Below are positions 823 to 61,507 of a DNA stretch of 64,000 bases, in pieces (position 1 is the first letter of the stretch; the number at the start of each line of letters is the position of its first letter). Source of the stretch: Clytia hemisphaerica (Eukaryota > Cnidaria > Hydrozoa > Leptothecata > Clytiidae); assembly GCA_902728285.1 (NCBI GenBank), contig CACVBU010001038.1, positions 1,077,180 to 1,141,179 of the forward strand. Direction: 5' to 3'. Made by a program: the position numbers and the translations under genes. The notes below the pieces were generated by a model. That model saw nothing but the letters and a program-made list of their open reading frames with translations. It had not been told where the DNA came from and ran no database searches.

Positions 823-1671
823 CACGTTTTTTTATAAGAACATCTTCGGCTGTTCTTAATTTGTTGAGTTTCAAGCCTAAAAATGTTCTTAATATGTTCT
901 TTTTCCCCATTTTATGAGTATTTTTGTCCATTTTCTTAACCCTTTAAGTGCCGATGTCGTATATATACGACATGGGCTATATAGGAGGGCGAAGCCCTCC
1001 TGTAATGCCCAATTTGAGTTAGAAATCGTTATTTTTGGTCGAACTCGTAGGAATTAGATTGTCCTTTATGGTCAAGCAAAAAAAAATTCAAAAGTGAGTC
1101 TTTCCAGCGAAATTTTAAGCAAAAAAGTCAAAAAATTGCAAAAAATTGACAAAAATTCACTTTTTTGAGATTCTGACCGTTTTTTGACTATTTTTGGTCA
1201 ACGAGTGATCCAAGAACCTCCAAATTCGGCCCTGTTTTACTTTATTCTGTCTTCTAGTGAATTGATTTGAAATTTTACCACTGGGCACCTTTTCATCAGT
1301 TCAGTCAGGTCCGCGCAGCGGGCCTGACTGCTTTAATTCCGTAACCTACCCCCCCCCTTGGCCGCCGCCCACCACGCCCTTCCTAAATCGGGCGGCGCCG
1401 AAGGCGCCCAAAAGAAAGAAGAGACTCTAAGCTATCCAACGAGCTATATACGAGCTTCTAATTCCTTCTAGATCAGGAGATATAAGCCCTTAAAGTTTGA
1501 ACTAGCGATTTTTTAAAAAAAACTTAGAAAAAAGGACCCTGGCACTCAAAGGGTTAAGAAGTTGGGTGTTTCAGAGTCGTCAAAGTTTTAAAATGTTCTT
1601 TACAACTTGTACTTAATGGTTATGCCATCGAAGCCTTATGTTCTTATATAATTTGTTCTTATAAAAACGTG
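823..1671 (+). mobile_element. CACG/poly-T TIR element (AAGAAC type), split by a TTAA element
   Basis: The ends are cacgttttttt..ataagaac on the left and ttcttataaaaacgtg on the right, followed by TA. The interior has repeated TGTTCTTA. The element is interrupted at the sequence TTAA by the insertion at 940-1553. Joining the two flanks recreates the arrangement of the uninterrupted copy at 2927-3171 (ccattttc followed by gtgttt and a Gly/Glu-like non-coding stretch). It is non-coding. Confidence 0.7.
940..1553. mobile_element. piggyBac-type non-autonomous element, copy 1
   Basis: The ends are CCCTTTAAGTGCC on the left and GGCACTCAAAGGG on the right, each flanked directly by TTAA (936-939 and 1554-1557). 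A TTAA target duplication and CCC/GGG ends are the hallmark of piggyBac elements. The interior carries a palindromic gtcgtatatatacgac next to the left end and no transposase ORF. It is 614 bp, about 80 bp longer in the middle than copy 2 at 4177-4710, which lies in the opposite orientation. Confidence 0.85.
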
Positions 1672-1904
1672 TATGGTAACGTGTCGCCCTGGTAATGAAA
1701 TATCTTGAACTTTCACTCCATTTGAAAAGCTTCATTTTGTCCGTCACCCTTATAGAAAAAGAACTATTTTAAGATTCCAGACTAAGTTATTTAGTTGATA
1801 ATGGTAAATTTAAACCATCAAACGCTGAAGATTTTCTTTACCCCATGAATTGATAGGAATTTAACCTCTCACAGACAGGGGTGTTTTATATTTTTTACAT
1901 ACTT

Positions 1905-2125
1905 TCGGGTACCTAATAAACGGGGGACTATGAATAAGCGGGGTTGGTGGGAAAAAATGTCCTGGGTAGAAATTTTTTGAAAACGAGGCTAATAATACAG
2001 CAGAATTAGAACAAAAGAGAGAACTTTCAAAAAAAAAATTTCCTATAAATCAATAAACGGGGAAATGGAATAATAATGTCCTGGGTGGAAGATTTTCGAA
2101 AAATTAATTAGCGCCCCCCCCCCCA
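1905..2125. mobile_element. Degenerate element with repeated cggggg/aataaac motifs
   Basis: It begins ggtacctaataaacggggg and carries further aataagcggggttgg and aataaacgggg copies, ending near a poly-C run. It shares motifs with the complete element at 44653-44955. It is a partial, decayed relative. Confidence 0.45.
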
Positions 2126-2244
2126 CTTGAATTTAATACCGAGTTTATGTATGTGTGTTTTTCAGCGACGGAGGCGGTAAGGTTCTAATTTGGCCCATTG
2201 ACTCGGTCATATTTTTGACCCAGTTGACCCTTCTATTTTTTACG

Positions 2245-2415
2245 ACTCGAGTCGCATAGGAGGAGGTCTAAGTAACCAATCCTGTATTACTAAAAATAGG
2301 CAAAAAGAACGACACATTTCATAAAAGAAAAAAGACAAAAGAACGACAAATTTCGCGGGAATTAACTGCATGTGGTTTAAAAGAACGACAAATTACGCAT
2401 GCGTGTTACAATGGC
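2245..2415 (+). repeat. Dispersed repeat with AGAACGACAAAT motifs
   Basis: Three copies of agaacgacaaat or agaacgacacat, then a gcgggaattaactgcatgtgg block, ending at acgcatgcgtg. An inverted copy lies at 57998-58185. No coding potential was seen. Confidence 0.6.
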
Positions 2416-2926
2416 AGGATTTGCAAGACGAACCTACTGATAGAGACTCGTTCGAGGAGTTTTATAAATTTTTTTTATTGTAGATCCAAGAAAATTGGGA
2501 ATTTATTCTATTAATAGGGGCCCTATAAAATATCTTACTACTGAAGGGTACTTTACAGTTAAACACAAGTAGTACATATTAAGAAATAATTTCGGTGGGT
2601 TGATTTCATCATATCGCCGAAACACTCCTGATCTTGCAATTTATGTTTAATCTTTAGCTGATGAAATTCTTCCGTAACTAGATGAAATTCCTTTTGGATT
2701 TTCTTTCCAACTTTCGTCACATTGGTGTTATATCTGCTTTCGAGAAGACACCCACGTGCCTTTTTAACCATGATCCGAAAAGACTCCGACAGGACGGTAT
2801 TATCTACATGAAAAGTCATTTTTCATCTCATGTCGAAAGCCTTTTTATGTAATATGCTTGTTTATAATATTTCTTTATGATTTTATGAAAACTTCCCGCT
2901 TTGGTCTAAAAAGTCTCCGCGCTATA

Positions 2927-3171
2927 CACGCTTTTTTTAATAAGAACATGCAAAATTCTTGAAGCCTTCTCAACTTTTGAGTTTTAAGCCTAATAATGTT
3001 TTAACATGTTCTTACTTTCAACATTTTTTAGTATTCTTGTCCATTTTCCTAAGAATTCAGGTGTTTTAGAATCTGCCTTAAATTGCCTTAAATTTGTTCT
3101 TAACTTTCTTAACATTTAGGCCATCGAAGCCTTATGTTCTTATATAGTTTTTTTTTAATAAAAGAAACGTG
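2927..3171 (+). mobile_element. CACG/poly-T TIR element (AAGAAC type), uninterrupted copy
   Basis: The left end is TA-CACGCTTTTTTT followed by aataagaac. The right end is ttcttatatag, poly-T/A, gaaACGTG-TA. The TA flanks fit a TA target duplication. The interior contains repeated TGTTCTTA and the subterminal phrase ccatcgaagcc found in the other copies. It is about 245 bp and non-coding. Confidence 0.75.
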
Positions 3172-3366
3172 TAATGAATACTGGGATCTACACTTGGATA
3201 AAAATCCTTGAAAAGGCGGGAAATCTATTGAAGTCCTCGTTACATGCATTTGATATCGAAATTATATCGTCTGATCTCATTTGTCAGAAATTCTTCATTT
3301 TAGGCTCATTGAACTGGTGACGAAATTCTGCTCTCCTTTGTAAGTTTCGGAAGTTTGCGTTGTCTA

Positions 3367-3616
3367 TCATGGGGGGGGTTGTAGGGGTTCGAAATACCGT
3401 TTTCCCGTCAAAATTTTTGCTGAATCCCGGAATCCCGAAAATTGAAAAAATAATAACACCGTCACACCGGCTTGCACAGGGCAAAAATGTACCTAAATAC
3501 CGTCACCGTCTGATTTTAAAATACCGTTTTCCCGTCTCTTTTTTCGTCAAATCCCGTAATACCGTACTAAAAAAGGGCCAATCCCGTCACACCGTAAAAG
3601 TACAAACCCCCCTATC
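3367..3616. mobile_element. Short element built of ACCGT/CCCGTC motifs
   Basis: The ends are G-rich (atgggggggg ttgta) on the left and C-rich (tacaaacccccctat) on the right, and are complementary. The interior repeats ataccgt, cccgtc and acaccg about a dozen times. Open frames on both strands here come from this low-complexity pattern and are not genes. Confidence 0.55.
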
Positions 3617-4176
3617 ATTACACCATTTAAGAACCAGTAAATTATGACTAAGCCTCGATTATTATTTTTGAGATTTTAAAGGCTTCAAGATTTCCAAATG
3701 TTTATAAGGTCATTCATAATGTTCTTATTAAGAAAGTACATGTACATCGTGTTTTCATAAGAACAATAAGACTCAAAAATTCGAAAGAATAAGAACAATT
3801 TAAGAACAATGCCGAGCCTGGAACGGCTGGATTTCAACAGTCTGGCCTCGTCAAAAAAAAATTACTTAAAAATAAGAGTGACAGGATTCACGTAATAAAA
3901 TATACACTTTTTGTGTAAAAACATGAACTTGTCATTATCAATCAAACTTTCCACGTGTTTTTTTTCTGTCAATTTAGAGATTGGAATTTAGGGTCAAATT
4001 TTATTGGCCTTGATAGAAATTTGATCCACGAATGAATTTATAGCACTCATGGTTGAATTCTTCGATAGGTTTAATATCTCAAAACATTGCTTTTCATTTC
4101 GCGAAACTTTTTGTCTTTTTTGCTTCAAATACTACTTGCTAATTTACAGCGTAGTCAAATAAATGGGTGGTTTTAA

Positions 4177-4710
4177 CCCTTTAAGTGCCAGGGTCCTTTT
4201 TTCTAAGTTTTTTTTTTTAAATTGCTAGTTCAAACTTTAAGGGCTTATATCTTCTGATCTAGAATGAATTAGAAGCTCGTATATAGCTCGTTGGATAGCT
4301 TAGAGTCTCCTCTTTCTTTTGGGCGCCTTCGCTGCGCGGACCTGACTGAACTGATGGAAAGGTGCCCAGTGGTAAAACTTCAAATCGACTCACTAGAAGA
4401 CAGAATAAAGTAAATCAGGGCCAAATTTGGAGGTTCTTGGATCACTCGTTGACCAAAAATAGTCAAAAAACGGTCAGAATCTCAAAAAAGTGATTTTTTG
4501 TCAATTTTTTGCATTTTTTTGACTTTTTCGCTTAAAATCTCGCTGGAAAGACTCACTTTTGAAATTTTTTTTGCTTGACCATAAAGGACAATCTAATTCC
4601 TACGAGTTCGACCAAAAATAACGATTTCTAAATCAAACTGGGCATTACAGGAGGGCTTCGCCCTCCTATATAGCCCATGTCGTATATATACGACATCGGC
4701 ACTTAAAGGG
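4177..4710. mobile_element. piggyBac-type non-autonomous element, copy 2
   Basis: It is flanked by TTAA at 4173-4176 and 4711-4714. It starts CCCTTTAAGTGCCAGGG and ends CGGCACTTAAAGGG. It matches copy 1 (940-1553) in reverse orientation along most of its length, with the middle GC-rich part shortened. No ORF. Confidence 0.87.
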
Positions 4711-4774: not shown

Positions 4775-6613
4775 CAACGACCTCTTTGAAAAAGAAAATT
4801 CAAATATGCTTATTATTTTATGCTATTCGTTAGGAAAATCAATGACTTTGCTTTTTCTTATTTTTCAGTTTCAAGATTTTATTTCAAATTTTATCATAAT
4901 AACAAAAAATATAATAAGATAATACATAAATATTATGTATTATAAAACAAGTTGAATATTATACACAAACATTCCAATATGATATAATTAGAGGTAAGCC
5001 TACACTTATTATCAAACCTAGCATTACATTAAAAACCATATTATAATGATTTTAATTACAAGGTAAGATAATAACGTAATATCATAATATTAGAAAAATA
5101 TAATTACTTTTTTCTTGGCATCTTATATTTTACACTATATTACAAATTAATTGCATTAGTTTTATAACTATAAAAGCATATTATATTTACATGAATAATT
5201 TCCCCCCTTTAGAAGGAAAACTGGTCCAGGGACCCTTTTTTGTTGTATTATATTTTTTCTTCTGAAATCCAAAATAGCACAAGCATGTCAAGTTTAACAC
5301 TGTCATTAAAATATTTAATAAAACCTGTTATCTAGCATTTTTACTATAAGTTCCTTTTTGTCCCTTTTTTTTTACGATTCCCTAAAATTGTGTTGTTATG
5401 AAAATCCTATAATGGCTTCTCAAAATTTGGGTAATGTTTTTAGAAATTGATTTCGAAATTTTGGCATGAAAAGAAAAAACTCATTTCAAAGGTATTCGAA
5501 TATATCCTACTCAACACTTTTCAAATACGTTTAATGCCAAACCGCTTAAAATCCCTTAAATAGAACACTCATTAAATTCTATTGTTTTTCATCCTTATAA
5601 AAATGTGTAATTTCTTTCCCCTCAAGAGGGTCATTAAACATTTTTTGAAGGGATGGGTTTAGTTAATGACCGCTACCTAATGATCTATTGTCTCATTTTT
5701 CCGCGCTATAATTCATCAGAAATATCTTAATTGTTATCCGGCAGCCATCATTTTTCGATTCCTAAACGAGTTTTTTAAGATCCTGTTCCTTGAATTTAAA
5801 AAATCTAATTAAAACACGCAATTTTTAAGTTTACTCGTTAAAATCATAGATAAATTTTATGATTTTTGAATTTGGTAGGTAGTATCCGACAGCAAAATCC
5901 GCTAGATTTTGAAAGCACAAAATTGTCAATCCAGCTAACAAGCCTTGTTTTTCTTCTCCATTATATTCAGAATACCCAGACATGAAGTTCTTTAAAAAAT
6001 TCAAATTTTTTTTCCATCATCAACTTTTGTTTATCAATAAAGATGTCATAAATTCTGTTCACTTCCTTTTCCTCATTGTTTTTCTTAGGGTTTCTAGAAA
6101 CTTGGAATCTAGTTTCTCTTCTCTAAAATCACCCACGAGGAAGAAGGAAGAAATGTCAGACGGTTTTTCCCTTCTCCCACCAAATCGTGTCAAAAGTTCG
6201 TTAAAAAGTTTCCAATATACTTTCAAAGTTACTTAATATTGTTTACGTCAGCAAAGTTAAGTTTCCATATGTAATAAACATCGTCGGATGCGACACATTT
6301 GAAGTTGTGATGTAACATACGTTACATTTTATGACCAATAAGAAATTGTCATATCAAAATAACTTTAGAAACTTTATATTACCATAACATGCCAAATGAA
6401 CACGCTTAGTATCCATATTTGTTTTCGTCAATTAATTAAACTAGCCATGCTGTGTCAATTAGCTGATTGAACTGTACTACAAACAGTCAAAATCGCGTCC
6501 AACCCAACATTATTTACTGCAGAGCTTTCAGATTCTTTAATTCTGTATCTGTCGTTGATATTCAAATTCATTGTTCTATCTCTGCCGATCTTTACATTGT
6601 AAATTTAGCCATC
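4775..6613. other. AT-rich intergenic stretch
   Basis: Very AT-rich, with many short direct runs. ORFs here are short and compositionally ordinary. No repeat ends, tRNA or convincing exon were recognised. Confidence 0.4.
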
Positions 6614-7429: not shown

Positions 7430-8548
7430 CTCCCAAGTTAGTATGGAATGGATATCTTTCCTTTTTGTGCTCTTCGTTGTGTTGGCACAGCGATTGATAT
7501 GTGCAATTAAATTCCCCGTTTTGAATTTCGGTTATGATGTCTCCTTAACTTTGGATCTGATGTCGTGGGAATGTTTACTTTTTGGCTTTGTTTTTTTGTT
7601 GTTGTTGTTGTTCGATGTATTCTTTTACAAGTACAATAATAATGTGTTCTTAAGTTTCCTTTTTGTTTTATGATTTGAATTTTTCTTTTGTCTCTTATTT
7701 CTATGAGTAAACAAAGAACAGGTTAATAAAAATGATTTTGCTAAAAGAAAATTGATAATCAAGGCAACAGGTCAAGACAGGATAAAGCGTGTAATGTTCG
7801 TTAAAATCTGTCCGGTTATCCCGGGTAATCCAAATGTTTCGACCCTGTAGTTTTACCATAGTCATTATGAAAAACCCCGGTCTGGCAATGTATTGTTTTA
7901 GCGTTTTGTTCAATTTTCTTTTGTTACAAACAAAAGACAAAGTTGCGATTTGGATACTTTTTGATCACGTTACCAAAATATCATATTGGAATTGGTCTAT
8001 TTTCTAATCACATGATCAAAAAAATTGCAAAATAAATCGATTTTGGTACATAAGCTCCATCTCTTAACAATAAAAAGAAACAAAAGCCTTCCATACCAGT
8101 GACTATGGTTTTGGGAAACTTTTTAAACAAAGTTATAAGTCTAGCTATTAAGTAAAACGTTATGCTTGAAAATGTCCAAAAAGCTAAATACCGTACTGGA
8201 ATAGCGGTCCCTCAATTTCCTGAAATAATTAATGGAAATTTAGCGGATATGGCAACTAAAATTCGCCAAAACTTTAATATTTTGTCATCAAAATAATGCA
8301 AGTACCACAAAACTTCAAAAACAACATTACGTTGTTGTTATATCAAAACCCCCAATTCTATCCACCCCCATTCCTTCCCTCTCTCCTTAAAATATGTCAG
8401 AATGTTACCGTATCAATCACCACATGAAAAGCAACTGATTTGACAGTTTTAAAGATTCCTTTTCTAATAATGATAATAATGATGCTGATTGATGATGATT
8501 GTGTTTCTATTGATTTGTTTATTCAACCGACCATGACTGATACTTAAA
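7430..8548. other. Intergenic stretch upstream of the PH gene
   Basis: AT-rich sequence upstream of the minus-strand PH gene. Short ORFs on both strands have no recognisable domain. A short (GAT)n-like run lies near 8467-8500. Confidence 0.4.
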
Positions 8549-8752
8549 TTATTTTTTTTATAAGAGCATCCAAAAAATTTTGAAGCATTCAGATGTACTT
8601 AAATTTTTGAATTTTTAGCTTAAACCTGTTCTCAATTTTTTCCTATTTTTACCGCATTGTGAGTATTTTTGCCCATTTTCCTAAGAAATCACGTGTTTTA
8701 GAGTCTGTAAAGCCTTAAAATGCTCTTAACTTGTTCTTATAAAAAATTGTAG
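8549..8752 (+). mobile_element. CACG/poly-T group element, decayed copy
   Basis: poly-T plus ataagagcatcc on the left and ttgttcttataaaaaattgta on the right, with gcttaaacctgttct and cctaagaaatcacgtgtttt inside as in the other AAGAAC copies. The terminal CACG is mutated. Confidence 0.6.
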
Positions 8753-8898: not shown

Positions 8899-9080
8899 TA
8901 CGCTTTTTTTTATATTAGAACATATATAGGCTTCGGTGGCCAAAACACCAAAAAGTTAAGAACACTTTAAGGCTTTTCGCACTTTGAAAGCACCCAAATT
9001 CTTAGGATTTTACAAAAATAATTACAAAATAGTTAAAATAAGAACCTTTCTAGGCTTAAAACTGAAAAAGTTGTACTTAA
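8899..9080 (-). mobile_element. CACG/poly-T group element, truncated, reversed
   Basis: It carries ggcttcggtggccaaaac and repeated gttaagaac, in the opposite direction to 8549-8752. The far end is missing. The two copies sit 150 bp apart in inverted orientation. Confidence 0.55.
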
Positions 9081-9120: not shown

Positions 9121-9441
9121 ACACCCCTGTCTCAGTGCCCCGGTGGCATGATTTCAGTACATGATTTTTTTCAGTACATGGTTTCAGTACATGATTTTTT
9201 CCTACGTTACTGCAGTAATCAAATTTTTATTGCACTCATTTGTGAATTGAGATATAAATTGAATAAAGACAGCGACAATAAAAAACAGTTCTTGAATTCC
9301 CAAGCCATTTAGGATGATTACAAATGAGTGCAATAAAAATTTGATTACTGCAGTGACGTAGGAAAAAATCATGTACTGAACCATGTACTGAAAAAAATCA
9401 TGTACTGAAATCATGCCACCGGGGCACTGAGACAGGGGTGT
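9121..9441. mobile_element. Palindromic element with ACACCCCTGTCTCAG ends
   Basis: The ends are perfectly complementary (acacccctgtctcagtgcc and its reverse). The arms run about 120 bp inward, and each has three cagtacatg motifs. The gagacaggggtgt end recurs at about 36006, 37290 and 59160, so this is a dispersed family. The ORF across it is an artefact. Confidence 0.75.
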
Positions 9442-18656: not shown

Positions 18657-18905
18657 CGAGTTTTTTCATAAGAACAAACTATATAAGAAAATAAGTCTTC
18701 GGTGGCCAAAATATTAAGGACAAGTTAAGAACATTTTAAGCCTTTATGGAATCTAAAACACCTGTTTTCTTGGGAAAATGGACAAAAATACTCAAAAATT
18801 GTTGAAAATAAGAACATGTTGAGAACATTTTTAGGCTTGTAACCCGAGAAGTTAAGAACATCTGAAGGCTTGAAAAATGTTGGATGTTCTTACAAAAAAA
18901 ACATG
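18657..18905 (-). mobile_element. CACG/poly-T TIR element (AAGAAC type)
   Basis: It has the family order: poly-T, ataagaacaaactatataag, cttcggtggccaaa, several ttaagaac, a ttaggctt block, and an end at tgttcttacaaaaaaaaCATG-TA. Full length with a mutated left CACG (cgag). Confidence 0.7.
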
Positions 18906-19021
18906 TATCCGAGAAAGGAAATTCATGCTCGCAGGTGGCATCACTATTTTCTGCCCTGATACAATACACTATTAATCTTAAGCTGAAAAAAAATAACTTT
19001 TTGTGACCTCGTTTTGAAAAA

Positions 19022-19270
19022 GCGTACTTTTATAAGAACCAGTATATTTTTGATGAGGCTTATCTGTTCTTATCTGTTTCTTATCGTGTTCTTATCTATG
19101 AGGTAAAACTGGAGCATTTTAAGTTTATTACCCTCTATCTTTTTCTGATACAGAATTTGCTTAAAATTCAGCTATTATTCCAAACTCAGCATTGTTCTAA
19201 AATTGTTCCTATTTTGGCATTTTTGAGTGTCATTGTTCTTAAAAATTGTTCTAATATAAAAAAGAGTGTA
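19022..19270 (+). mobile_element. TIR element (ATAAGAACC/ATTGTTCTTA type), uninterrupted copy
   Basis: gcgtacttttataagaacc at the left and gttctaatataaaaaagagtgta at the right. The interior repeats ttgttcta and gttcttatc. It is the reference for the interrupted copy at 15511-16813. Confidence 0.65.
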
Positions 19271-23310: not shown

Positions 23311-24040
23311 TATACTTTATAAGAATCAAATCAATAACTCTTGATTGAAGGCAATATGCCTTTCGGTAATTAGTCCTTACAAAGTAAACAAAGGATGGCG
23401 AAAAAGATGAGCATATTTATTTTTATTATAAGCATCTGCTTTATAAGAATCAAATCAATAGCTCTTGATTGAAGGCAATATATCTTTCGGTAATTAGTCC
23501 TTACAAAGTAAACAAAGGATGGCGAAAAAGATGAGCAGATTTTTTTTTATTATAAGCATCTACTTTATAAGAATCAAATCAATAACTCTTGATTGAAGGC
23601 AATATGCATTTCGGTAATTAGTCCTTACAAAGTAAACAAAGGATAGCGAAAAATATTTAATTTTATTATAAGCATCTGCTTTATAAGAATCAAATCAATA
23701 ACTCTTGATTGAAGGCAATATATCTTTCGGAAATTAGTTATAGAAAGTAAACAAAGGAAGGCAAAAATGATGAGCATATTTATTCTTATTATCAGCATTT
23801 TCTTTATAAGAATCAAATCAATAACTCTTGATTGAAGGCAATATATCTTTCGGTAATTAGTTCTTACAAAGTAAACAAAGGATGGCGAAAAAGATGAGCA
23901 TATTTATCTTTATTATAAGCATTTTCTTTATAAGAATTATATCAATAACTCTTGATTGAAGGCAATATATCTTTCGTTAATTAGTTTTTACAAAGTAAAC
24001 AAAAAATGGCGAAAAAGACGAGTCTACTTTATAAGAATCA
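23311..24040. repeat. Tandem array, about 123 bp unit, six copies and a partial
   Basis: The phrase aagaatcaaatcaataactc recurs at about 23321, 23444, 23569, 23684, 23808 and 23932, with a last partial unit at 24033. Spacings are 123, 125, 115, 124 and 124. Each unit ends with acaaagtaaacaaaggatgg and a tattataagcat(c/t)t block. Non-coding, a satellite-like array. Confidence 0.85.
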
Positions 24041-24484: not shown

Positions 24485-24570
24485 TCTTGTTTTTATAAGA
24501 ATGGTGAAATCCATTTCACCATGGGTATTCTTAACTGTTTTGGGAAAACCACCCTAAGATATTCTTCTTT
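24485..24570 (+). mobile_element. Truncated CACG/poly-T group element (AAGAAT type)
   Basis: tttttataagaatggtgaaatcc followed by tattcttaactgtttt, as in 31504-31758. Cut short by an AT-rich run. Confidence 0.5.
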
Positions 24571-31503: not shown

Positions 31504-31758
31504 CACGCTTTTTTTTATACGAATGGTGTAAATCCATTTCATCATGAATATTCTTAACTTTTTTGAGAAAATCATCCTCAAATATTCTTACAGCATTCTT
31601 AGGTTAGGATTCTAATTGACAGTTTATAATTTAAAATGGTCTAAAAATGGCTTGAGTAGCAAAATTTTCTGATGGTGATATTCTTAGCATATTCTTAATT
31701 TTTTGGCGATTTTCATCATGGACATTATATAAAGTGTATTCTTATTAAAAAAAGCGTG
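31504..31758 (+). mobile_element. CACG/poly-T TIR element (TAAGAAT type)
   Basis: The left end is TA-CACGCTTTTTTTTATACGAATGG. The right end is tattcttattaaaaaaaGCGTG-TA. The interior has atattctta repeated at least five times, with tttcatcatg dyads. It shares termini with the AAGAAC copies but uses a different internal motif. Confidence 0.75.
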
Positions 31759-35127: not shown

Positions 35128-35275
35128 CACGCTTTTTTATAAGAACAAACTATATAAGAACACAAGGCTTCGATGGCCAAAATGTTAAGAACATGTTAAG
35201 AACATTTTTAGGCTTACATTTGAAAAAGTTAAGAACATCCGAAGGGAAATTTTTGATGTTCTTATAAAAAATGTG
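35128..35275 (-). mobile_element. CACG/poly-T TIR element (AAGAAC type), short copy
   Basis: TA-CACGCTTTTTTATAAGAAC at the left and tgttcttataaaaaaTGTG-TA at the right. At 148 bp it lacks the middle of the 18657 and 61282 copies. gttaagaac repeats remain. Confidence 0.8.
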
Positions 35276-37917: not shown

Positions 37918-38011
37918 AAGCAGTCTACGTCAACTATTGTACGTCGTTCTTGCTCTCGTTGCAAATTATATTGAGACAGGGATTTATCAACTAAATTACT
38001 TGATCGAAGAA

Positions 38012-38626
38012 ATGAGCACTCTATCGCCGCCTCAGCGTTCTGGTCGAGTTTATGCTGCTCACACCATTTTACACAACTTCAATAAAGCTACCGATAAGTT
38101 CGTGTCAATAATTAAGAGATTGATTTTTAAAGATGACGATTTCTGTAAAGATATTGAAAAATTCAAAGAAAATCCTTCTCCTAATGGCATAACTTTGGCA
38201 ATTCAAAATTTCTTTCAAAAAGAAGGCGTTTTTCAAGAAGTTACAAGATCACTTCAAAATACACCAGAATATATATCATTGGATTACAGTCCCCATGATT
38301 TAGACGAATTGCTGTCAAGTGGATACTTGCAATTGAATCTTGCTAAACAACTAGAAGGTTTACATCATATCTCTCCGACAAGGACAGTTTCAGAGGTTAG
38401 TGTAGATTTAGGACAGACCTCCAATTACCCTTATCATCTATCAGAACGTCAAAATGCGATATTCTACAATACGCTTCGATCGTTTAGCTCACCCAATGAA
38501 AATCAAGATCATAAAGACTGGTGGTCAAGAAAAAGTTGTTGTTGTTCGGTTTCTCGTTTTGAAGTTGCCGCCAATGTCTGCTTCTTCTTCATTTTCATCC
38601 TCTTCGTTGCTTCATTCAACTATTGA
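38012..38626 (+). CDS. Unrecognised protein in duplicated segment, copy 1
   Basis: About 205 residues from the ATG at 38012 (starts MSTLSPPQRSG). The frame is open upstream to 37910, but the upstream part crosses the duplication border at 37923, so the inner ATG is preferred. The N-terminal and middle parts are ordinary, charged and probably helical. The last 20 residues are strongly hydrophobic (CFFFIFILFVASFNY), like a tail anchor, preceded by a CCC cluster. No domain recognised. Just downstream, in another frame (about 38631-38797), is a typical non-LTR reverse-transcriptase C-terminus (NVVVPLAKN .. LWNILP .. FKNKLK, stop). This ORF may belong to a chimeric retrocopy or to the retroelement itself. 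Confidence 0.45.
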   Translation: MSTLSPPQRSGRVYAAHTILHNFNKATDKFVSIIKRLIFKDDDFCKDIEKFKENPSPNGITLAIQNFFQKEGVFQEVTRSLQNTPEYISLDYSPHDLDELLSSGYLQLNLAKQLEGLHHISPTRTVSEVSVDLGQTSNYPYHLSERQNAIFYNTLRSFSSPNENQDHKDWWSRKSCCCSVSRFEVAANVCFFFIFILFVASFNY

Positions 38627-38639
38627 TCACATACGAGAG

Positions 38640-38797
38640 AGAATAATGTCGTAGTCCCTCTTGCCAAAAACATCTTTGTTAGTCAAACGTTCATTACCTC
38701 AACCAGACATCTGTGGAACATTCTACCCTTAGAGATGAAACAATATCAATCCCTTTTATCGTTTAAAAACAAACTCAAAACTCGCATTTACAATTAG
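38640..38797 (+). pseudogene. 3' end of a non-LTR reverse-transcriptase ORF, copy 1
   Basis: The translation has the classic tail of CR1/L2/RTE-like ORF2 proteins: a NVVVPLAKN segment, a ST.HLWNILP motif, then SLLSFKNKLKTRIYN and a stop. Nothing of the polymerase domain is present, as expected from 5' truncation or template switching. Confidence 0.65.
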
Positions 38798-39235
38798 AAA
38801 TTTATCATTTATTATCTAAATCAGTTACTTTGTTTGTTGTTCCAAGGATTCAATCCTCAGAGCAATGGATGAGATGTCTTTTTTAACTTTTTTAACTGAA
38901 ATTTTTTTACCTCAAAGTACTTCGTAAAGGTAACAATCAATCTTTAGTCAAATGTTTGAATTTGTTTTATAAATTTCATTTCAAAAATCCAATTATTTAT
39001 TTCTGAATTTCATTTTTATTGTTCCGAAAAGTTATTTTTATTTTTTGATTGTTTGATTAAAATTCATCAATTTAGACTATACTCTTAATTGTGATTAATG
39101 TAGGAAGAGTCGAATAAGTAGGGATGGGAAACTCCAGAAAAAATATCATAAAATTAACTCCCTACAAGAAAGCACAGAAGAGTAACAAGGACAAAACTAA
39201 TTCAGTATTCAAAATCCTTTTTTGTTCTTTGTAAT

Positions 39236-40091: not shown

Positions 40092-40362
40092 CTTGTTTGA
40101 TTTATCTCCAAGGATAGAATGAAGTTTGTTTTTATTCTCTGCTCAGTCCTGAAGTAGCAAACTCGTTTCCCGCCGAAATCTGCACATACGAAACGATCAC
40201 GTGACCAAAATAAAAAAAATCTCAACCTCGGAGCTGGGACTTCCCGACCATGTATAGTATTCAATTGACATTGGTCTACGTCAACTATTGTACGTCGTTC
40301 TTGCTCTCGTTGCAAATTATATTGAGACAGGGATTTATCAACTAAATTACTTGATCGAAGAA

Positions 40363-40977
40363 ATGAGCACTCTATCGCCGCCTCAGCGTTCTGGTCGAGT
40401 TTATGCTGCTCACACCATTTTACACAACTTCAATAAAGCTACCGATAAGTTCGTGTCAATAATTAAGAGATTGATTTTTAAAGATGACGATTTCTGTAAA
40501 GATATTGAAAAATTCAAAGAAAATCCTTCTTCTAATGGCATAACTTTGGCAATTCAAAATTTCTTTCAAAAAGAAGGCGTTTTTCAAGAAGTTACAAGAT
40601 CACTTCAAAATACACCAGAATATATATCATTGGATTACAGTCCCCATGATTTAGACGAATTGCTGTCAAGTGGATACTTGCAATTGAATCTTGCTAAACA
40701 ACTAGAAGGTTTACATCATATCTCTCCGACAAGGACAGTTTCAGAGGTTAGTGTAGATTTAGGACAGACCTCCAATTACCCTTATCATCTATCAGAACGT
40801 CAAAATGCGATATTCTACAATACGCTTCGATCGTTTAGCTCACCCAATGAAAATCAAGATCATAAAGACTGGTGGTCAAGAAAAAGTTGTTGTTGTTCGG
40901 TTTCTCGTTTTGAAGTTGCCGCCAATGTCTGCTTCTTCTTCATTTTCATCCTCTTCGTTGCTTCATTCAACTATTGA
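40363..40977 (+). CDS. Unrecognised protein in duplicated segment, copy 2
   Basis: Same ORF as 38012-38626, with one residue change seen (Pro to Ser in the ENPS-NG stretch). Both copies stay open over the full length, so either the copying is recent or the ORF is under constraint. The same hydrophobic C-terminal tail is present, and the same reverse-transcriptase tail follows at 40991-41148. Confidence 0.45.
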   Translation: MSTLSPPQRSGRVYAAHTILHNFNKATDKFVSIIKRLIFKDDDFCKDIEKFKENPSSNGITLAIQNFFQKEGVFQEVTRSLQNTPEYISLDYSPHDLDELLSSGYLQLNLAKQLEGLHHISPTRTVSEVSVDLGQTSNYPYHLSERQNAIFYNTLRSFSSPNENQDHKDWWSRKSCCCSVSRFEVAANVCFFFIFILFVASFNY

Positions 40978-40990
40978 TCACATACGAGAG

Positions 40991-41148
40991 AGAATAATGT
41001 CGTAGTCCCTCTTGCCAAAAACATCTTTGTTAGTCAAACGTTCATTACCTCAACCAGACATCTGTGGAACATTCTACCCTTAGAGATGAAACAATATCAA
41101 TCCCTTTTATCGTTTAAAAACAAACTCAAAACTCGTATTTACAATTAG
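40991..41148 (+). pseudogene. 3' end of a non-LTR reverse-transcriptase ORF, copy 2
   Basis: Identical in frame and stop to copy 1. Past the duplication, gttatacaagtggcccccgg may belong to the 3' region of the same retroelement type. Confidence 0.6.
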
Positions 41149-41300
41149 AAATTTATCATTTATTATCTAAATCAGTTACCGTTCCAGTTGTTGTTCTGTT
41201 ATGTTATACAAGTGGCCCCCGGGGAGACAATGGCTCAACTGCCTAAATGCTAAGTCATCATTTCATGGCCAGCCACTTAAAATATTGGTCATTGTTATTA

Positions 41301-52200: not shown

Positions 52201-55200
52201 CATTTTAGTGATGACGTCATAACAGGAAATTCAAAATATCGTCATTTTCAGACTTTTAGCAATATCTTTGCTGAAGATGGTTCAAATATGATCAAATTTG
52301 GCCAAAAATTGTGCTTTATGATGGTAATTAAGATGAAAATGTAAAAAATGACAAAATTTTATTTTTCAGGGGGTTTGGTTGGGTCAAAATAGCTCAAATT
52401 AGCAATTTTTGCCTAATTTTGACGATTTTTTGCACTTTATCATCGTCTGACTTTAAAAAAGTCATCAAAACTCTTAACAAAGTCATGATGAAATATTTAG
52501 CATACCAATAAAGATGTTTAAACGCCATTGAATTTAAGATGGCCTAATTGCTGTGAAATGTAAGATATTAGGGAGCCAAAAACATTGAGATTTGGAATCT
52601 TGAATTTAAAATTAATCTGAGAGTTTTTTGAAAAGGAAAAAAAATCTATTTAACAATCATTGAGTTTTTCAAAAATATTTTCAGTGTCTTGTCCATCCGA
52701 GTCATGTTGTTCACTAATCGCTTCGTCTAACTCTTCTTCTTCGAAAACGTTTTCCTCGTCCTAGAGAAATAAGCAATGAGGGGAAGTCGTCAGCTTGGTG
52801 GGTGGATTTCTAGTAAGGGGAGCTACAGTAGTTGCCATATTAAACACTTTGTCTTTATAAAATCTTGCTCCTTAGTTACAAAACAGGCGAACGTTTTCCT
52901 CAAAACTCAAGTGGTCAGAAGTTATGACCTAATTTAAGGAAAATGAGTTTCTCACTCGGGTCAAATTGATGCATTAAAATTTGGCATAGTTAATGATAGT
53001 TTAAAGCCAAATTACATTTGTGTTGTGTTACAATCAACTCCATGGCAATCGCCACACGATGAAACACAAGGTAGGTTATACTTCTTACACGTGCAAATCT
53101 TCGTTCCACATGGGTTTTTGGTAGTTGTTTTGCACTTGCATCTGATTACCTTCAGGAGAGAATCCGGAGCAAAAGGTTGATCGGTCTTAACTGGAATAAG
53201 TACATCCGCCTTGTGTGTTTTCCATCCCCATTTACATACGTCGAAGACAAAGAAGTCCTTTTCATCATCTTTAATGAGAGACCAGCACATTATTTGATAG
53301 TGTGCCCGCAATCCATGAAAGTAAGCGGCTCGTTCTGTTGGAGGCATGTTCGCCGGCTCAATCACTCCCTTGCACGCCATATCCACATATCTGTCATGTC
53401 TAAAAAGGACAGTAAGGATTTATTGAGGACGAGTCGTAAATTATAAGAAATGGAATAGAAAAATGTAGACTCATTTCAAAACAAACCTTATTTGAGATAA
53501 TGTCGAATTCAGTTTGCCACCATATAGGATTTTGAAAGCCTCAATCGACGCTTTGCCGACTTCCTCTTGCGTGCTCCAAATATTACTCGATTTCTTTTCC
53601 AGATATGAGTTGGGGTACACTATTTTCGGCATACATCTCTTCCAATAGCAGTTCTAGACCTGAGCCTTTCATCATGGTCCCGATACTTCCCACAAAACTC
53701 ATTAAAGTGTGGAAACCTCCAAGCCGACAGTGATTCTTCCTTTATTATTCCCATGGCCTTTAACCAAAGCGGTTGATCGAAGGTGACACTTGGTGTTGTG
53801 ATTCCAGCTTTCTTAGCTTCGTTGATGATAAACTGTAGCGTTGAGTAGATACATTTCGGACTTGATGGTGTCAGATCGATAATAGGTAGAAATGTAACGG
53901 TAGACTTGGATTTGGGATCGGGTGTAGTGCCAGTTGCTAATTGCATATAGCCGTTCCAATTAGGTCTTGTTTTTGAATGACTGAACCAACCACAATGCCA
54001 TATGATGTCGTAATTGATTGAAGATGGAATTGTAGATACAAATTGAAGTTCATGGTAAGGCTTCAATAATAGCTGATTCAGTCCGGTGTTCTGGTTCTTG
54101 AAGTAATCAACAATTTCGACTCCTCTTTTCTCGGTTAACCTTTCGACTTTGAGGCGTTTTTTCAATCCTGGAACACGTCCGAAATATCCTTGAGGTGGTT
54201 TGTCACTGGTACAAATGATGCCCATACCGTGAAATGTACCTTTTCCTGATAGGGTGACAGTGTTATGGTCAGCATTATCTGCAATCCACTGAGCGAACAG
54301 TTGAGTCAGCGTTTCTAAGTTGATTTGAGACAACTGATCGGCATCTAGATTTGCGATGACTGATTGTTTGAATCTTGTAACTTCATCGGGTGTTATTGCT
54401 AATCCAAGTTTTGACAAATGATTAACAAGCCATTTCGAGACATCTAGATCTCGAATATCAGCTTTTATGATTTGTGCAGCTGCTCTTAAGACGCCTCCCT
54501 TTGTCATTAATGATTTAAGTCTTCGGAGGTGAAAATCAGCAAGGTTTCTGAACATTACTAAGTCACTTTGGCGACCTTTTCCTTTAACAAAGTAGATGTG
54601 CCCTTCGTATTTGGCACTTAGTTTATCACGAAATCTACGAAGAGTGTATCCGTTCTCGTTGAATTCAAGGAGCTTTTCGTGAAGTTCTTGTATTGTGTAG
54701 CTTTCACAATACATCATGTTTTCGAAGTGATGACAAAACATCTCGAACGCTTCAGACATTTCTATATTTTCAGGTCTGCCTTTTTTAGGCTTCGGGGTTT
54801 GATCGTGTAAGCAGAAATCCATCATACAATTGCAGTGGTATCTTGCCTCTTCTGCTGGCAAATCTATGCATGTTTGCAATCTTCCATTAACTTCTTCTCC
54901 CCAGTCGTCCTTCGGTTTAATGCAGCCTCCAAAACAATTTTGCGCCTCTCGATTGTCTCGACTTCCTTGTAATCATCTTTTTTACTATCACATGGTTTGG
55001 CACATTAAAAGCAATCTTTCTTCCAATTGAAAATTCTATCCAACGAAGATCGTAGTCGTTTTGGAGGAAGGGTTTCGATTGGAATCGTTCTTTTGTCAGT
55101 TAGGCGTTTACGACACTTTTCATGCACGAAAATTTTGGACTCTTTAGCTGACAGATTTTTTATCTCTTGTAACAGCCCACTCTCTCCTTTCTTGTCGCAT

Positions 55201-57106
55201 GCATATTGCATAGTCCGTAGTCCTTTCTCACCAACTGGATTGGTAGGGTCATCGCCTTTTGTGCCACAAATAACGCAGTTTTCTGGATCCATTGTTCTAA
55301 AAGGATTATAATTATGATTTATTAGAATTTTAGCGTCCGGCGACGCATTTTTACGAAAAAATGCTGTTCTAAAGTCTAGAAATTTTTCATGAACAGCAGG
55401 TCAAAACTTTTGAGATAGTGGGGTGGGACAGGGTTATAAGGCAATGAGACACGGGTATGCATACAACTGAGATCAGTAGATGAATTCTTGAGACGATGAG
55501 GCAGGGGTAATTTCTAAGACAGTAAGACAAGGTACAAACCCAAGAACAGCTTATCAAAGTAACTATAAAACAGGGTAAAAAATAGGTTTAATTTCTAAGG
55601 TCTTCACCGGATGATTGTGTAATTTTGACAGCTAGATTTATGTACTGGTGGTCTTGTCATGGATTTTTAAGCAAATGTGCAAAACGAACGATTATAAAAC
55701 TAACCTTTAGTATATAATCTGAGTACTCCTGCGTTCGTACAAGTTTCTTGGTTCATACCAGTAAAGTTATCAATCAATATTACTAATTCTTATTATTGTT
55801 TACCACTAGAAGATAAGCAAAAAAATTCATAAACATTTTAAATTAAAAAAAAAATACAAGTGACATAGAAACTCACACCGACCTGTATTTTAGATAAGAA
55901 TGCAAGTCTCAAATATTATAGTACGTTCACTCTACTTTGGATAATCGTTAACGACTCTCAAGTAGAATTCTCTTCTTTCAACCATTGAAAACAATGGAGA
56001 TGAGTGTTTGTAAAAAGGACATTATCCAAAGTACAGGGTGTCCCTAATTAAAGTATCGAGTCGAAACACAACTATGAGTAGAAAGTTTTATGTGCGTGTT
56101 CACAAAATTGTATTTTAAGCTCTCCCTCTTTTTTCTTTGTCATTACGATTAATTTATACGTTGTAACTACCTTTTGTAATAAGCCTGTGTGATGGAGAAC
56201 GTTCTTATATTTTAGCGATAACACACACAAACTTTTCTACTCAATCGCATGTTCAAACTCGATACTTGTATTAGGGACACCCTGTAGAGTGAACGCACTA
56301 TACACGCAAATGCAATGATATTTTACGATCAATTAATTAAAAATAATCAATGGAGTGCATGCTGATCCCTTGGGGAATCCATTAAAAAGTTCAAACATTT
56401 TACTCGGGAAGCTAGAATACTTTATCAAGAGTTTGAATGACTCTTTTAAAGTAAGGCGATGATAAAGTGCAAAAAATAGGCAAAAATAGGCAAAAATTGC
56501 TCATTTGAGCTATTTTGACTCAACCAAACCCCCTGAAAAATAAAATTTTGTCATTTTTTATACTTTCATCTTAATTGCCATCATAAAACACAACTTTTGG
56601 CCAAATTTGATCACATTTGAACCATTTTCAGCGAAGATATTGTTAAAAGTCTGAAAATGACGATATTTTGAATTTCCTGTTATGACGTCATCACTAAAAT
56701 GGCCTAAAAAAGGGTGTTCCACCAGTGGGAATTTAGGGGAATTTTTTTTGTGGTTTAAGGATACTATAAGGAAGGTCTGTGCAAAATTTCAGCCGGATCA
56801 TATTTTTTTCCTACAAATAATGTCAGGCGACCACACTAATTGGTTTATTTCTATTTGATTATTTTCAGTGGGGACAAAAATTGGAGGATAATTTTCCACC
56901 AGGGACGATATTTGTAGAATTTTTCCAGTGTGAAGGGGTCCCAGTGAGTCTGTGAGAAGGGGATGTTTAGAACCTTTTAAAGCGATTATAAAAACAATTG
57001 GCATACTTTTGAAGCTTTCTGTTTCTTGTTCGAAACCATTTTCAGTCAACCAATGAAGGACATCAGCGATTGACCATTGATAAATCGATTTTGGTAACGA
57101 TGGCAT
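46306..57106 (-). CDS. SAM-domain, Gln-rich, coiled-coil protein, five exons
   Basis: Exons: 57007-57106, 50709-50879, 48290-49393, 47593-47706 and 46306-46919. All introns have GT-AG borders and phase 1, and the total of 2103 bases gives 700 residues. A SAM domain spans residues about 8-72 across exons 1 and 2 (WSIADVLHWL, then HQIDGRALALL and GPRVKFRAKL). A Gln tract follows (about 149-168), then a long Asn/Ser/Pro-rich stretch. A conserved block at about 396-462 (RERSKIFRRSEKKW, KDPSLLMRK) is followed by a basic coiled coil (about 470-560). From memory, similar proteins without known function occur in cnidarians and relatives. SAM domains oligomerise, and a nuclear or RNP scaffold role is inference. 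Introns 1-3 host mobile elements, and intron 1 (6.1 kb) contains the long-TIR unit. Confidence 0.8.
46920..47592 (-). other. Intron 4 of the SAM gene
   Basis: Non-coding. At 47031-47115 it has a block (tatacggaagcat, tagc.cgggcg, ttaccgct-like) that recurs in intron 3 at 48109-48192, so both introns hold copies of one unclassified repeat. Confidence 0.6.
47899..48095. mobile_element. MITE in intron 3 of the SAM gene
   Basis: The ends are tagacctcttcataaattac and the complement, with near-perfect arms of about 43 bp (gtcacgaacatcatttgcct). It shares the tagacct end with the palindrome at 27302-27484. It lies wholly inside the intron, clear of both splice sites. Confidence 0.8.
50460..50677. 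mobile_element. TA-flanked MITE in intron 2 of the SAM gene
   Basis: TA at 50458-50459 and 50678-50679. The ends are caatcatggtcgaaatat and the complement atatcatgaccttgattg. It belongs with the CAATCATGG family at 32931-33314. A separate fragment ends at 46050 with TA after it. Confidence 0.75.
51498..51788 (+). CDS. Small ORF of unknown nature
   Basis: 96 codons on the plus strand within intron 1 of the SAM gene, followed 32 bp later by an aataaa signal. The sequence is basic, then acidic, with no recognised domain. It could be a chance ORF or the end of a degraded retrocopy. Confidence 0.2.
   Translation: MKFVLNFFYYKYSNGAKKTTKRQEMNKIKFLVFTFIIRFIWPSKKFFQIFDRAGRAVDKIEIYSTYESQEIVNLAPSLLNEFRPGHWNEGGDRNHL
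53012..55292 (-). pseudogene. Decayed copy of a multicopy Cys-rich gene family
   Basis: The N-terminal frame (55005-55292) has a CVIC..C pattern and ends in a premature TAA inside a Cys-X2-Cys region. The main frame (53620-54914) follows in another phase (KDDWGEEV, ARYHCNC, then ADNADHNTVTL, FHGMGII, VTFDQPLWLKAM). A one-base insertion near 53730 shifts it out of LGGFHTLMSFVG. A stop comes soon after, and a large internal part of the family is missing. The end is joined by a normal GT-AG intron (53400-53486) to a C-terminal part (53012-53399) with a tesmin-like Cys pattern (IRCKCK, CTCKKYNLPC, GDCHGVDC). From memory this family is highly multicopy in cnidarians, arthropods and molluscs and of unknown function. 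Four defects make this copy inactive. Confidence 0.75.
55919..56300. mobile_element. Outer MITE of a nested pair
   Basis: TA flanks at 55917-55918 and 56301-56302. The ends are tagtacgttcactctacttt and the complement ending gagtgaacgcacta. Its right arm is interrupted at a TA (ccaaagTA..TAgagtg) by the inner MITE; without it the arms pair over about 30 bp. Confidence 0.8.
56034..56284. mobile_element. Inner MITE, CAGGGTGTCCCTAA ends
   Basis: TA at 56032-56033 and 56285-56286. The TIR is cagggtgtccctaat followed by a tatcgagt block, complementary at the other end. CAGGGTGTCCC ends are typical of mariner/Tc1 elements. 251 bp, non-coding. Confidence 0.82.
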
Positions 57107-58189: not shown

Positions 58190-59318
58190 CCTCTATAAAG
58201 GAAATCCACATCCACCGGCAGGAACCACTTTTCGAAAAACTCCGACTAAAGCAGATTGATGTAACTTAATAAAGATCATTGACATGAACCAAATATTTTG
58301 AACTTTCAGTCTGAAATTAAGGAATTCCTTTATGAAGGAATACTTTTCCCCAATGACCCATCATTGGAAAAAAGTAAAAGAACTATACTTTTTTCGCCGT
58401 GAGAAACTAGTATAAAATTATAAAAAGACCTACTCAAAAACGAAGACGAGAAAAAGGGCAAAATACATAGCTATAAAAACATTCTCACCCTCTTTACCCC
58501 AACACGACTGGCCAGCATAGAATACGTAATTTGAAGAAAGAAAAATAGTATTGATAGGTGAGTGATGGATATATAATTAAGGGCAGATATACAAAAGACG
58601 GATTGAAAGAAAAAAGAAAAGGGGGTCGGGCCATAACAAGGGGGCAATTCATCGTGAAAAAAGAAAAGACATTAAAACAATCTAAAAAGTCCCCTCCCAT
58701 CTCCACCCCCTTTAGACTGCCCCCTTTTTACAATAAACGATCTTGCAAAATAAAAAACAAAAACTTTTTTAACATCCTTTTTGAAGGATTGTGAAAAGAT
58801 GGACAAGGTTGATTTTTCAGAGTAAGGGAAGCTCTTACGAGAGAGAGAGGAGGATAAACCCAACCCTTGACATTTTCCTGAGAATATTATCCTAATAATC
58901 ATATATTACGCCACAAACTACATGATTTTTTATAAGCAAACAGGCTGCTAAGGCTTGAGGGCTCAAATTAGCCAATTACGTTAAGTAAAATCTATTTTAG
59001 ATAATCTAACCATGGCAAACGAAAGCCCTTAGCCCAAATATGGTATAATATCAGGGGTGATATATCATGCATTAAAAACAGGCTATTTTATATCCCCCTT
59101 TTGGCATTAAACTCCTCAATTCTATCAAAATCAGCTTGAAAGATTCTCACCAGGTCACTGAGACAGGGGTGTAAAGAGAGAAGAAAAACTATTGCCAACA
59201 GGTGTGTAAATTCGTTGTGTAAAACCTTATCTTTTTAGCTCCATACCTACTTTGAGACACCGATCCTTTTATCACGAGTGAAGAGAAAAAGAAAAGAAGG
59301 CAAAAAGATTAACCCATA
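58190..59318. other. Stretch without recognised gene
   Basis: A purine-rich strand at 58580-58700 and a gagagagag run at about 58838 produce opposite-strand ORFs without domains. The gagacaggggtgt end at 59160-59172 is the tip of an undefined member of the 9121-9441 family. Confidence 0.4.
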
Positions 59319-59608
59319 CACGTTTTTTTTTTATAAGGAACACGTTTATAAGGAACTCGAGGCTGAAAATGGTTCAAAAAATAAGGAATTGTTAAGGAAC
59401 TGCTCAGGCTGAGAATAAGTGGATTTGAAAATAATGTACCTTATTGGGACTAATTTGACCAAATTTTGATCTTTCAAGGGGCAAAAAGTTCAAAATTTCC
59501 TATGTAGTAAGGAACTCGATAAGGAACTTTGAGGCTGAAATTCTCTGTAAAGATAAGGAACTCCAGGCTCAGAGCAAAGTTAAGGTTCCTTATAAAAAAA
59601 AAAACGTG
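59319..59608 (-). mobile_element. CACG/poly-T TIR element (AAGGAAC type)
   Basis: TA-CACG plus poly-T plus ataaggaac at the left and ggttccttat plus poly-A plus acGTG-TA at the right. The interior repeats aaggaac (eight or so) instead of aagaac. ctcaggctgag-like phrases correspond to the ggctt phrases of the other type. Confidence 0.8.
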
Positions 59609-60453: not shown

Positions 60454-60630
60454 CATGTTTTTTTCAAAAACAAGTGTCTGCCCCTTTGGTCAGGCTCGTG
60501 TATGCTTAAGTTTTCAAAGTTTTCAACTTGACAAATATTTCAGGCTGACATAATATGCTTATGCTATGCTTAGGAATTCTGTAAATCTGAGCCTTCATAT
60601 GCTTAAGCGTTATGCTTGTAAAAAAACATG
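60454..60630 (+). mobile_element. CACG/poly-T group TIR element (ATGCTTA type)
   Basis: TA-CATGTTTTTTTCAAAAACAAG at the left and tatgcttgtaaaaaaaCATG-TA at the right. The interior repeats tatgctta five or more times and has caggct phrases. Same layout as the AAGAAC copies with another motif. Confidence 0.7.
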
Positions 60631-61281: not shown

Positions 61282-61507
61282 CACGTTTTTTTATAGGAAC
61301 AAACTAAGGCTTCGATGGCCAAAATGCTAAGAACAGGTTTAAAACATTTTAAGGCTTCGTGGACTCTAAAACACCCGATTTCTTAGGAAAATGGTCAAAA
61401 AATGGAGAAAATAATAAGAACATATTAAGAACATTTTTAGGCTTAAAACTCAAAAAGTTAAGAACATCCCAAGGCTTCAAAAATTTTCTTCTTATAAAAC
61501 GAACGTG
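61282..61507 (-). mobile_element. CACG/poly-T TIR element (AAGAAC type), well preserved
   Basis: CACG plus poly-T plus ataggaacaaact at the left, cttcgatggccaaaatg, five gtt/ctaagaac units, and an end at tcttataaaacgaaCGTG-TA. 226 bp. Confidence 0.78.

Follow-up and report, generated by a model that had tools for sequence, protein, structure and literature searches.

The subterminal repeats of Spm/En transposons are recognised by the protein TNPA, and in soybean the subfamilies of Tgm CACTA elements differ in their subterminal repeats, a difference for which the authors suggest matching DNA-binding proteins and coevolution (available excerpts of PMC2613891). The Ac transposase binds AAACGG repeats cooperatively (available excerpt of PMC3260210). 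How a protein can change in step with its many sites is an open question, for which transposon families that differ mainly in their repeated word provide natural test sets. In the window, by which we mean the whole 64-kb stretch of DNA that was analysed, short elements with common tips carry arrays of an 8-bp word that differs from class to class. They are likely MITEs carrying arrays of predicted sites for a transposon-encoded, CACTA/EnSpm-like DNA-binding protein whose preference differs by class.

The window has a G+C content of 34.7% and is eukaryotic, probably from an animal. Pfam searches of its ORFs identified ubiquitin-like repeats, a protein with a PH domain and a gene resembling 3-hydroxyisobutyrate dehydrogenase; two ORFs each contain part of the domain matches of this last gene, as though introns divided it. 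A sequence-only reading of this DNA had described seven elements, starting at 2927, 18657, 31504, 35128, 59319, 60454 and 61282, that share TA borders, CACG or CATG tips and a poly-T tract. All seven are present where it placed them, and the borders and tips are shared by most of them: TA stands on both sides of five of the seven (18657 and 61282 have AA on the left and TA on the right), and 12 of the 14 tips are CACG or CATG, the exceptions being CGAG at the left end of 18657 and CACA at the right end of 35128. The seven are short (148-290 bp), non-coding and bounded by inverted tips, as MITEs are. The window contains 15 TIR-like pairs, whereas 30 dinucleotide shuffles gave 0.67 on average and never more than 3. 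Five of these pairs are the two ends of a single word-bearing element (823, 31504, 35128, 59319 and 60454), four belong to an inverted-repeat element near 9122-9440 that is unrelated, and the other six pair up ends by chance; the strict scan left 2927, 18657 and 61282 unpaired, each having one degraded end.

Although the observation was real, treating the seven as independent examples overstated it. BLAST of the elements against the window showed that 2927, 18657, 35128 and 61282 are homologous copies of one family, which we call class A, so we rejected seven independent elements in favour of four classes. Class A (word TAAGAACA) comprises 2927-3171 (minus strand, TA flanks at both ends), 18657-18905 (plus strand, its CGAG left tip without TA), the short form 35128-35275 (plus strand, TA flanks at both ends) and 61282-61507 (plus strand, with the tip word degraded at both ends). 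The same searches found further copies or pieces at 823-1671, 8548, 8899, 17084 and 42760, making class A a multi-copy family in the window. The copy at 823-1671 (minus strand, TG on the left and TA on the right) is split by a TTAA-flanked insert at 940-1553, 8548-8745 (minus strand) is degraded and 8899-9078 (plus strand) lacks its right end, the ends of these last two being approximate. The other three classes are represented by one full element each. Class C (word TAAGGAAC) is at 59319-59608 on the plus strand, with TA flanks at both ends and tip tracts of 10-11 T; its tip site is 59334-59341, further sites in the same direction start at 59349, 59382 (TAAGGAAT), 59393, 59508, 59520 and 59554, and the right-tip site at 59585-59592 is inverted, on the minus strand. 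Class B (word TAAGAATA) is at 31504-31758 on the minus strand, again with TA flanks at both ends, with an interior site at 31549-31556 (minus strand), others starting at 31583, 31594 (TAAGAATG), 31679 and 31690, and the tip site at 31737. Class D (word TAAGCATA), also TA-flanked at both ends, is at 60454-60630 on the minus strand, with sites starting at 60501, 60554, 60565 and 60598 and the tip CAAGCATA at 60611.

Three more features complete the inventory. A class B fragment at 24486-24566 (minus strand) is 85.4% identical to B. The segment 301-553 (minus strand) is a chimera, of which 301-386 is class B (82.6% identical to 31518-31603) and approximately 411-553 is class A; its class A side has a CATG tip and TA, and its B side is tipless. 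The element at 19020-19270 (minus strand), which we call A-prime, carries the exact class A word three times, and its BLAST matches to class A within the window, to 8899 and 35126, are confined to one end, of which they cover the first 24-37 bases; its other matches are at 3758, 15514, 15592 and 16716.

Several other repeats lie in the window. The 940-1553 insert is an inverted-repeat element (CCCTTTAAGTGCC...GGCACTCAAAGGG) that looks piggyBac-like by its target site; a copy at 4177-4710, 95-97% identical, internally shorter and in the opposite orientation, also lies between TTAA. The element at 9122-9440 has long inverted repeats starting CACCCCTGTCTCAGTG and poly-T tracts inside, and one of its stretches, CACTGAGACAGGGGTGTA, recurs at about 59156. 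A 906-base block occurs twice, at 37923-38828 and 40274-41179, with 99.8% identity, and holds most of a 239-codon ORF without a Pfam match. At 23679-24031 there are tandem-like repeats about 116 bases apart with ATAAGAAT words, for which TIR bounds were not seen. On the minus strand of 53012-55400, ORFs of 131, 450 and 135 codons, the last of them cysteine-rich, are without Pfam matches; they look like parts of one gene, possibly that of a mobile element.

Each class reiterates its own word, those of A and B differing by a single base. An element contains 4-8 copies of one 8-bp word. Almost all of them point the same way, the exception being the inverted copy at the right tip, and at one tip or both the poly-T is usually followed on its inner side by a copy. 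The class word is among the four commonest interior 7-mers listed for all eight elements (the seven and 19020), and in all seven the reiteration of the best 7-mer was matched by 0-7 of 1000 dinucleotide shuffles (7 for 2927, 2 for 61282 and none for the other five). Other regions of the window contain more strongly reiterated 7-mers, so reiteration alone is not special; what is distinctive is that elements sharing tips have different words, all built on TAAG.

The earlier claim that each element repeats its own variant of the word was confirmed on unselected sites. Taking every TAAG on either strand, with class A represented in turn by 2927, 18657, 35128, 61282 or 19020 beside B, C and D, agreement over the following four bases was 0.59-0.72 within elements and 0.31-0.33 between them, a difference reached by none of 20,000 permutations in each of the five runs. 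Of the 527 TAAG sites that lie outside the masked elements, 9, 6, 3 and 2 continue into the four words, a count that includes some unmasked class A and B fragments. TAAG ranked first of 23 testable four-base anchors, with a within-minus-between difference of 0.33 (median 0.006); the second, AGTT (0.28), is by our reading largely the reverse of the C word. The statement that AAG stays fixed has exceptions at tips (TACGAATG in B and TAGGAACA at 61282). Our grid, spacer and edge analyses use hand-chosen sites, a choice that fixes TAAG in advance and, in part, the bases after it, and that takes in degenerate class A sites; on these sites, with one element per class, agreement was 0.911 within elements and 0.431 at the same site between elements (0 of 200,000). 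By eye, a second repeated box follows the words and is seemingly class-specific: AGGCTT in A, AGGCTGA/AGGCTCA in C, GATGA in B and GGCTCAG/AGCCTGA in D.

The AAG word closest to the end is identical to the interior word at both ends of 18657, 35128 and 59319 and at one end of 2927, 31504 and 60454. At 61282 the interior word is found at neither tip, and at 19020 no tip equals the interior word, the chosen border making the call meaningless at one end. When the tips and interiors of the four classes are paired in every way, the true pairing ranks first of 24 (0.956, compared with 0.842 for the next); with four classes, the test cannot go beyond 1 in 24. Two single ends, at 58919-58990 (TAAGCAAA) and 5540-5609 (TAAGGATG), have a tip, poly-T and a TAAG word, and by eye no repeats of these words stand beside the 58919 and 5609 ends. 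They may be fragments, possibly of further classes, or evidence against the rule.

The clearest case of words changed as a set on a kept skeleton, and the only one shown, is that of B and C, which appears from their alignment. With the words and 16-base tips masked, the two elements align with a score of 56.9, compared with 24.1 +/- 4.3 for within-segment shuffles (0 of 300 as good) and 28.4 for a reverse-complement control; 98 of 137 unmasked columns are identical, a figure inflated by the optimised local alignment. In this alignment five B sites stand opposite five C sites and all five pairs differ, B having TAAGAATA (once TAAGAATG) and C having TAAGGAAC (once TAAGGAAT), with the identical change TAAGAATA/TAAGGAAC in three of the five. 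Same-site identity between B and C is 0.00 at word positions 5, 7 and 8 and ranges from 0.00 to 0.83, mostly 0.3-0.7, in the flanking columns. Spacers are more alike at the same than at different sites in eight of eight element pairs, by a small difference except in B-C (0.558 vs 0.370). With homologous spacers in B and C and a difference at every one of the five aligned sites, at least one pair of classes has kept its skeleton and changed its words together. The suggestion that new specificities arise as sets has direct support from one pair, B and C; a kept skeleton with changed words is only suggested for A relative to B or C, and is not established for D. The word sets are not inviolable, because the chimera at 301-553 carries two words, though without a tip on one side. 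Given many genome copies, the order of changes could be read from the B-C pair, with its common skeleton and a different word at every aligned site.

A single skeleton for all four classes is convincing by eye. At the left end two words stand 13-15 bases apart, except in B; a pair of words 11 apart starts about 46-48 bases after the first word; in A, B and C a pair 11-12 apart starts about 95-102 bases from the right end; and a single word stands about 47-56 bases from that end, the right tip being inverted. The placement of sites on this grid depends on the slack allowed, with 505, 109 and 7 of 5000 sets of random positions doing as well at slack 1, 2 and 3, and with free offsets none of eight pairs was significant (1190-4440 of 5000). 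Pairs of sites 10-12 bp apart, about one helical turn, number 7 where 1.97 would be expected (59 of 20,000); here each of the related class A elements was counted on its own. In masked alignments of the 12 between-class pairs, the number of shuffles out of 300 that scored as well was 0 for B-C and A4-C, 6 for A4-B, 10 for A3-C, 12 for C-D, 15 for A2-C, 19 for A3-B, 30 for A3-D, 81 for B-D, 86 for A2-B, 88 for A4-D and 123 for A2-D (A2, A3 and A4 being class A elements). The A4-C alignment is out of register, with no site opposite a site, and the reverse-complement control beats the true masked score for A2-B, A2-D, A3-D and A4-B; the within-segment shuffles do not establish masked homology between A and D or between B and D. 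With in-register homology seen for B-C only, we reject the common skeleton for now.

Two explanations had been offered for the match between tip and interior: a binding site that must be the same in both places, or an interior produced by repeated copying from the tip. The edges of the word bear on this choice. Around the chosen sites, the copies within an element agree at 0.84-1.00 across the eight word bases; the value is 0.51 one base further on and 0.18-0.45 in the other columns. The choice of sites inflates the first columns, but neither the sharpness of the border nor the spacer values. If interior sites were copied from the tip by gene conversion, slippage or template switching, the match would be mutational and owe nothing to binding. 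Such copying would account for the same variant occurring in most copies of an element, and recombination between classes does take place, as the B/A chimera at 301-553 demonstrates. Copying of a tract would, however, carry flanking bases along, whereas identity among sites drops to about 0.2-0.35 only a base or two beyond the 8-bp word, and repeated copying of the tip tract would erase the homologous spacers that in B and C are interleaved with the changed sites and are conserved rather than copied from the tip. The sharp edges therefore favour binding sites, and we consider tip copying quite unlikely. Of the two ideas we prefer the binding site, with which all four classes are consistent, although the protein it calls for was not found among the 18 ORFs of the window searched against Pfam.

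Plain descent would dispense with selection for matching altogether: the classes would be separate families, their words old internal repeats, and any likeness between classes the product of chance and A+T-rich composition. The homology of the four class A copies, the single base separating the A and B words, the lack of clear masked homology in A-D and B-D and the out-of-register A4-C alignment all agree with this account. It fits poorly with word positions that are near-constant among an element's sites while the spacers differ, and with B and C having their spacers, not their words, in common. The A word also recurs at 19020, whose interior otherwise has no match to class A, and this is what one would predict were the word set by a protein and not by descent. 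We judge plain descent unlikely. Within the window the words are not tied to any transposon protein, so they might instead be bound by host factors, such as proteins of transcription or silencing, but this we regard as very improbable, since the words differ among families with common tips and stand just inside those tips, which is where transposase-associated sites stand.

The elements are probably non-autonomous DNA transposons (MITEs), inserted at TA, that have CA(C/T)G and poly-T tips in common, and under the binding-site reading their arrays of 8-bp words would be putative sites for a sequence-specific protein of an autonomous partner. Classes A-D would answer to variants of this protein that differ in preference, and a new class would be born once all the sites of a lineage had come to match a changed protein, site by site, through mutation and selection. 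From the shared tips, one mobilising enzyme for all the classes is plausible. If the word sets specificity while the tips stay common, this would explain how related transposons avoid cross-mobilising one another. A bolder version, which we put forward as a tentative and rather doubtful possibility, is that in one animal genome MITEs have several times changed their words at all sites in concert while keeping tips and skeleton, each set being read by a different protein variant, so that orthogonal transposition systems would run in parallel. The evidence base for these proposals is four classes, three of which have a single complete element.

Membership of the elements in the CMC group (CACTA/EnSpm-Mirage-Chapaev) is plausible. 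Their tips agree with the CA..TG or CAC..GTG termini of that group (PMC6004678, PMC12730594), a short and weakly specific signature, and their subterminal arrays of short motifs do too, though such arrays also occur in hAT elements and so are not diagnostic. The TA on both sides of five of the seven is a possible TSD, but TA is common in such DNA, and a 2-5 bp TSD is itself not proven; empty insertion sites were found in the window for none of the eight elements tried. A Pfam search of 18 of the 24 listed ORFs of at least 110 codons in the 64-kb window found no transposase or DNA-binding partner. An autonomous CMC partner carries a DDE transposase with C(2)C and H(3-4)H motifs, or Transposase_21. 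PIF/Harbinger elements and their relatives have a 2-3 bp TSD (TA or TWA) and a Harbinger-type transposase, and Tc1/mariner elements have a TA TSD and a DD(D/E) transposase with a paired-like binding domain. The TA flank of our elements fits Tc1/mariner; typical Tc1/mariner elements are not known to carry arrays of seven or eight sites. The available excerpts of PMC12730594 give CA..TG ends and TSDs of 2-5 bp for most CMCT elements, and describe a Harbinger lineage with TA TSDs. Animal CACTA relatives with a 2-bp TSD exist, but have CCC tips (excerpts of PMC4298943 and PMC1636069).

Searches of viral and prokaryote contigs gave nothing that we regard as a relative. The exact class A string was found at no locus in viral contigs and at four in prokaryote contigs, the tip pattern at no locus in viral contigs, and the tip-plus-word patterns at 7 and 8 loci in viral contigs. 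Within 500 bp of these 19 outside loci, 14 have the matched copy of the word only, two have two copies and three have three (L006, L009 and L010). The extra copies lie at equal distances in L006 and L010 and partly so in L009 and L011; these four may be one viral region. None of the 19 resembles the window's arrays, and we judged them to be chance matches.

Among described systems, the soybean Tgm elements are alike in having conserved tips and subterminal motifs that differ between two subfamilies of one genome; unlike the elements described here, they are long, have motifs of 17-20 bp able to form stem-loops and have a 3-bp TSD (PMC2613891, excerpts). The Jozin CACTA elements of Chenopodium have a CAC tip, a homopolymer tract and then a motif that is reiterated inside. 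In our comparison over 9 bases, the tip and the interior motif of the same species agree at 9, 8, 9 and 7 of 9 positions, and in all four species no other motif does better than the species' own; only two distinct motifs are involved, making two groups rather than four independent cases. The available excerpts of PMC8978399, from which these motifs come, do not point out this match. Jozin differs in being from a plant, in consisting of full elements with a transposase, in a 3-bp TSD (stated for CACTA generally), in 19-23 motif copies with subTIR units both direct and inverted, and in being compared between species, not within one genome (PMC8978399). The wasp-linked CMC MITEs CMC-NA_1/2 and the tunicate ENS1_Cis, which we liken here by description only, have 5'-CAC...GTG-3' ends and a 2-bp TSD; unlike our elements, they have no word array in the available description (PMC6004678). 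The Ac/Ds elements of the hAT superfamily offer a short repeated hexamer bound cooperatively by the transposase, but have the 8-bp TSD and 11-bp TIRs of another superfamily (PMC3260210, excerpt). We regard the pattern in the window as one of a known kind, already visible in plant CACTA transposons.
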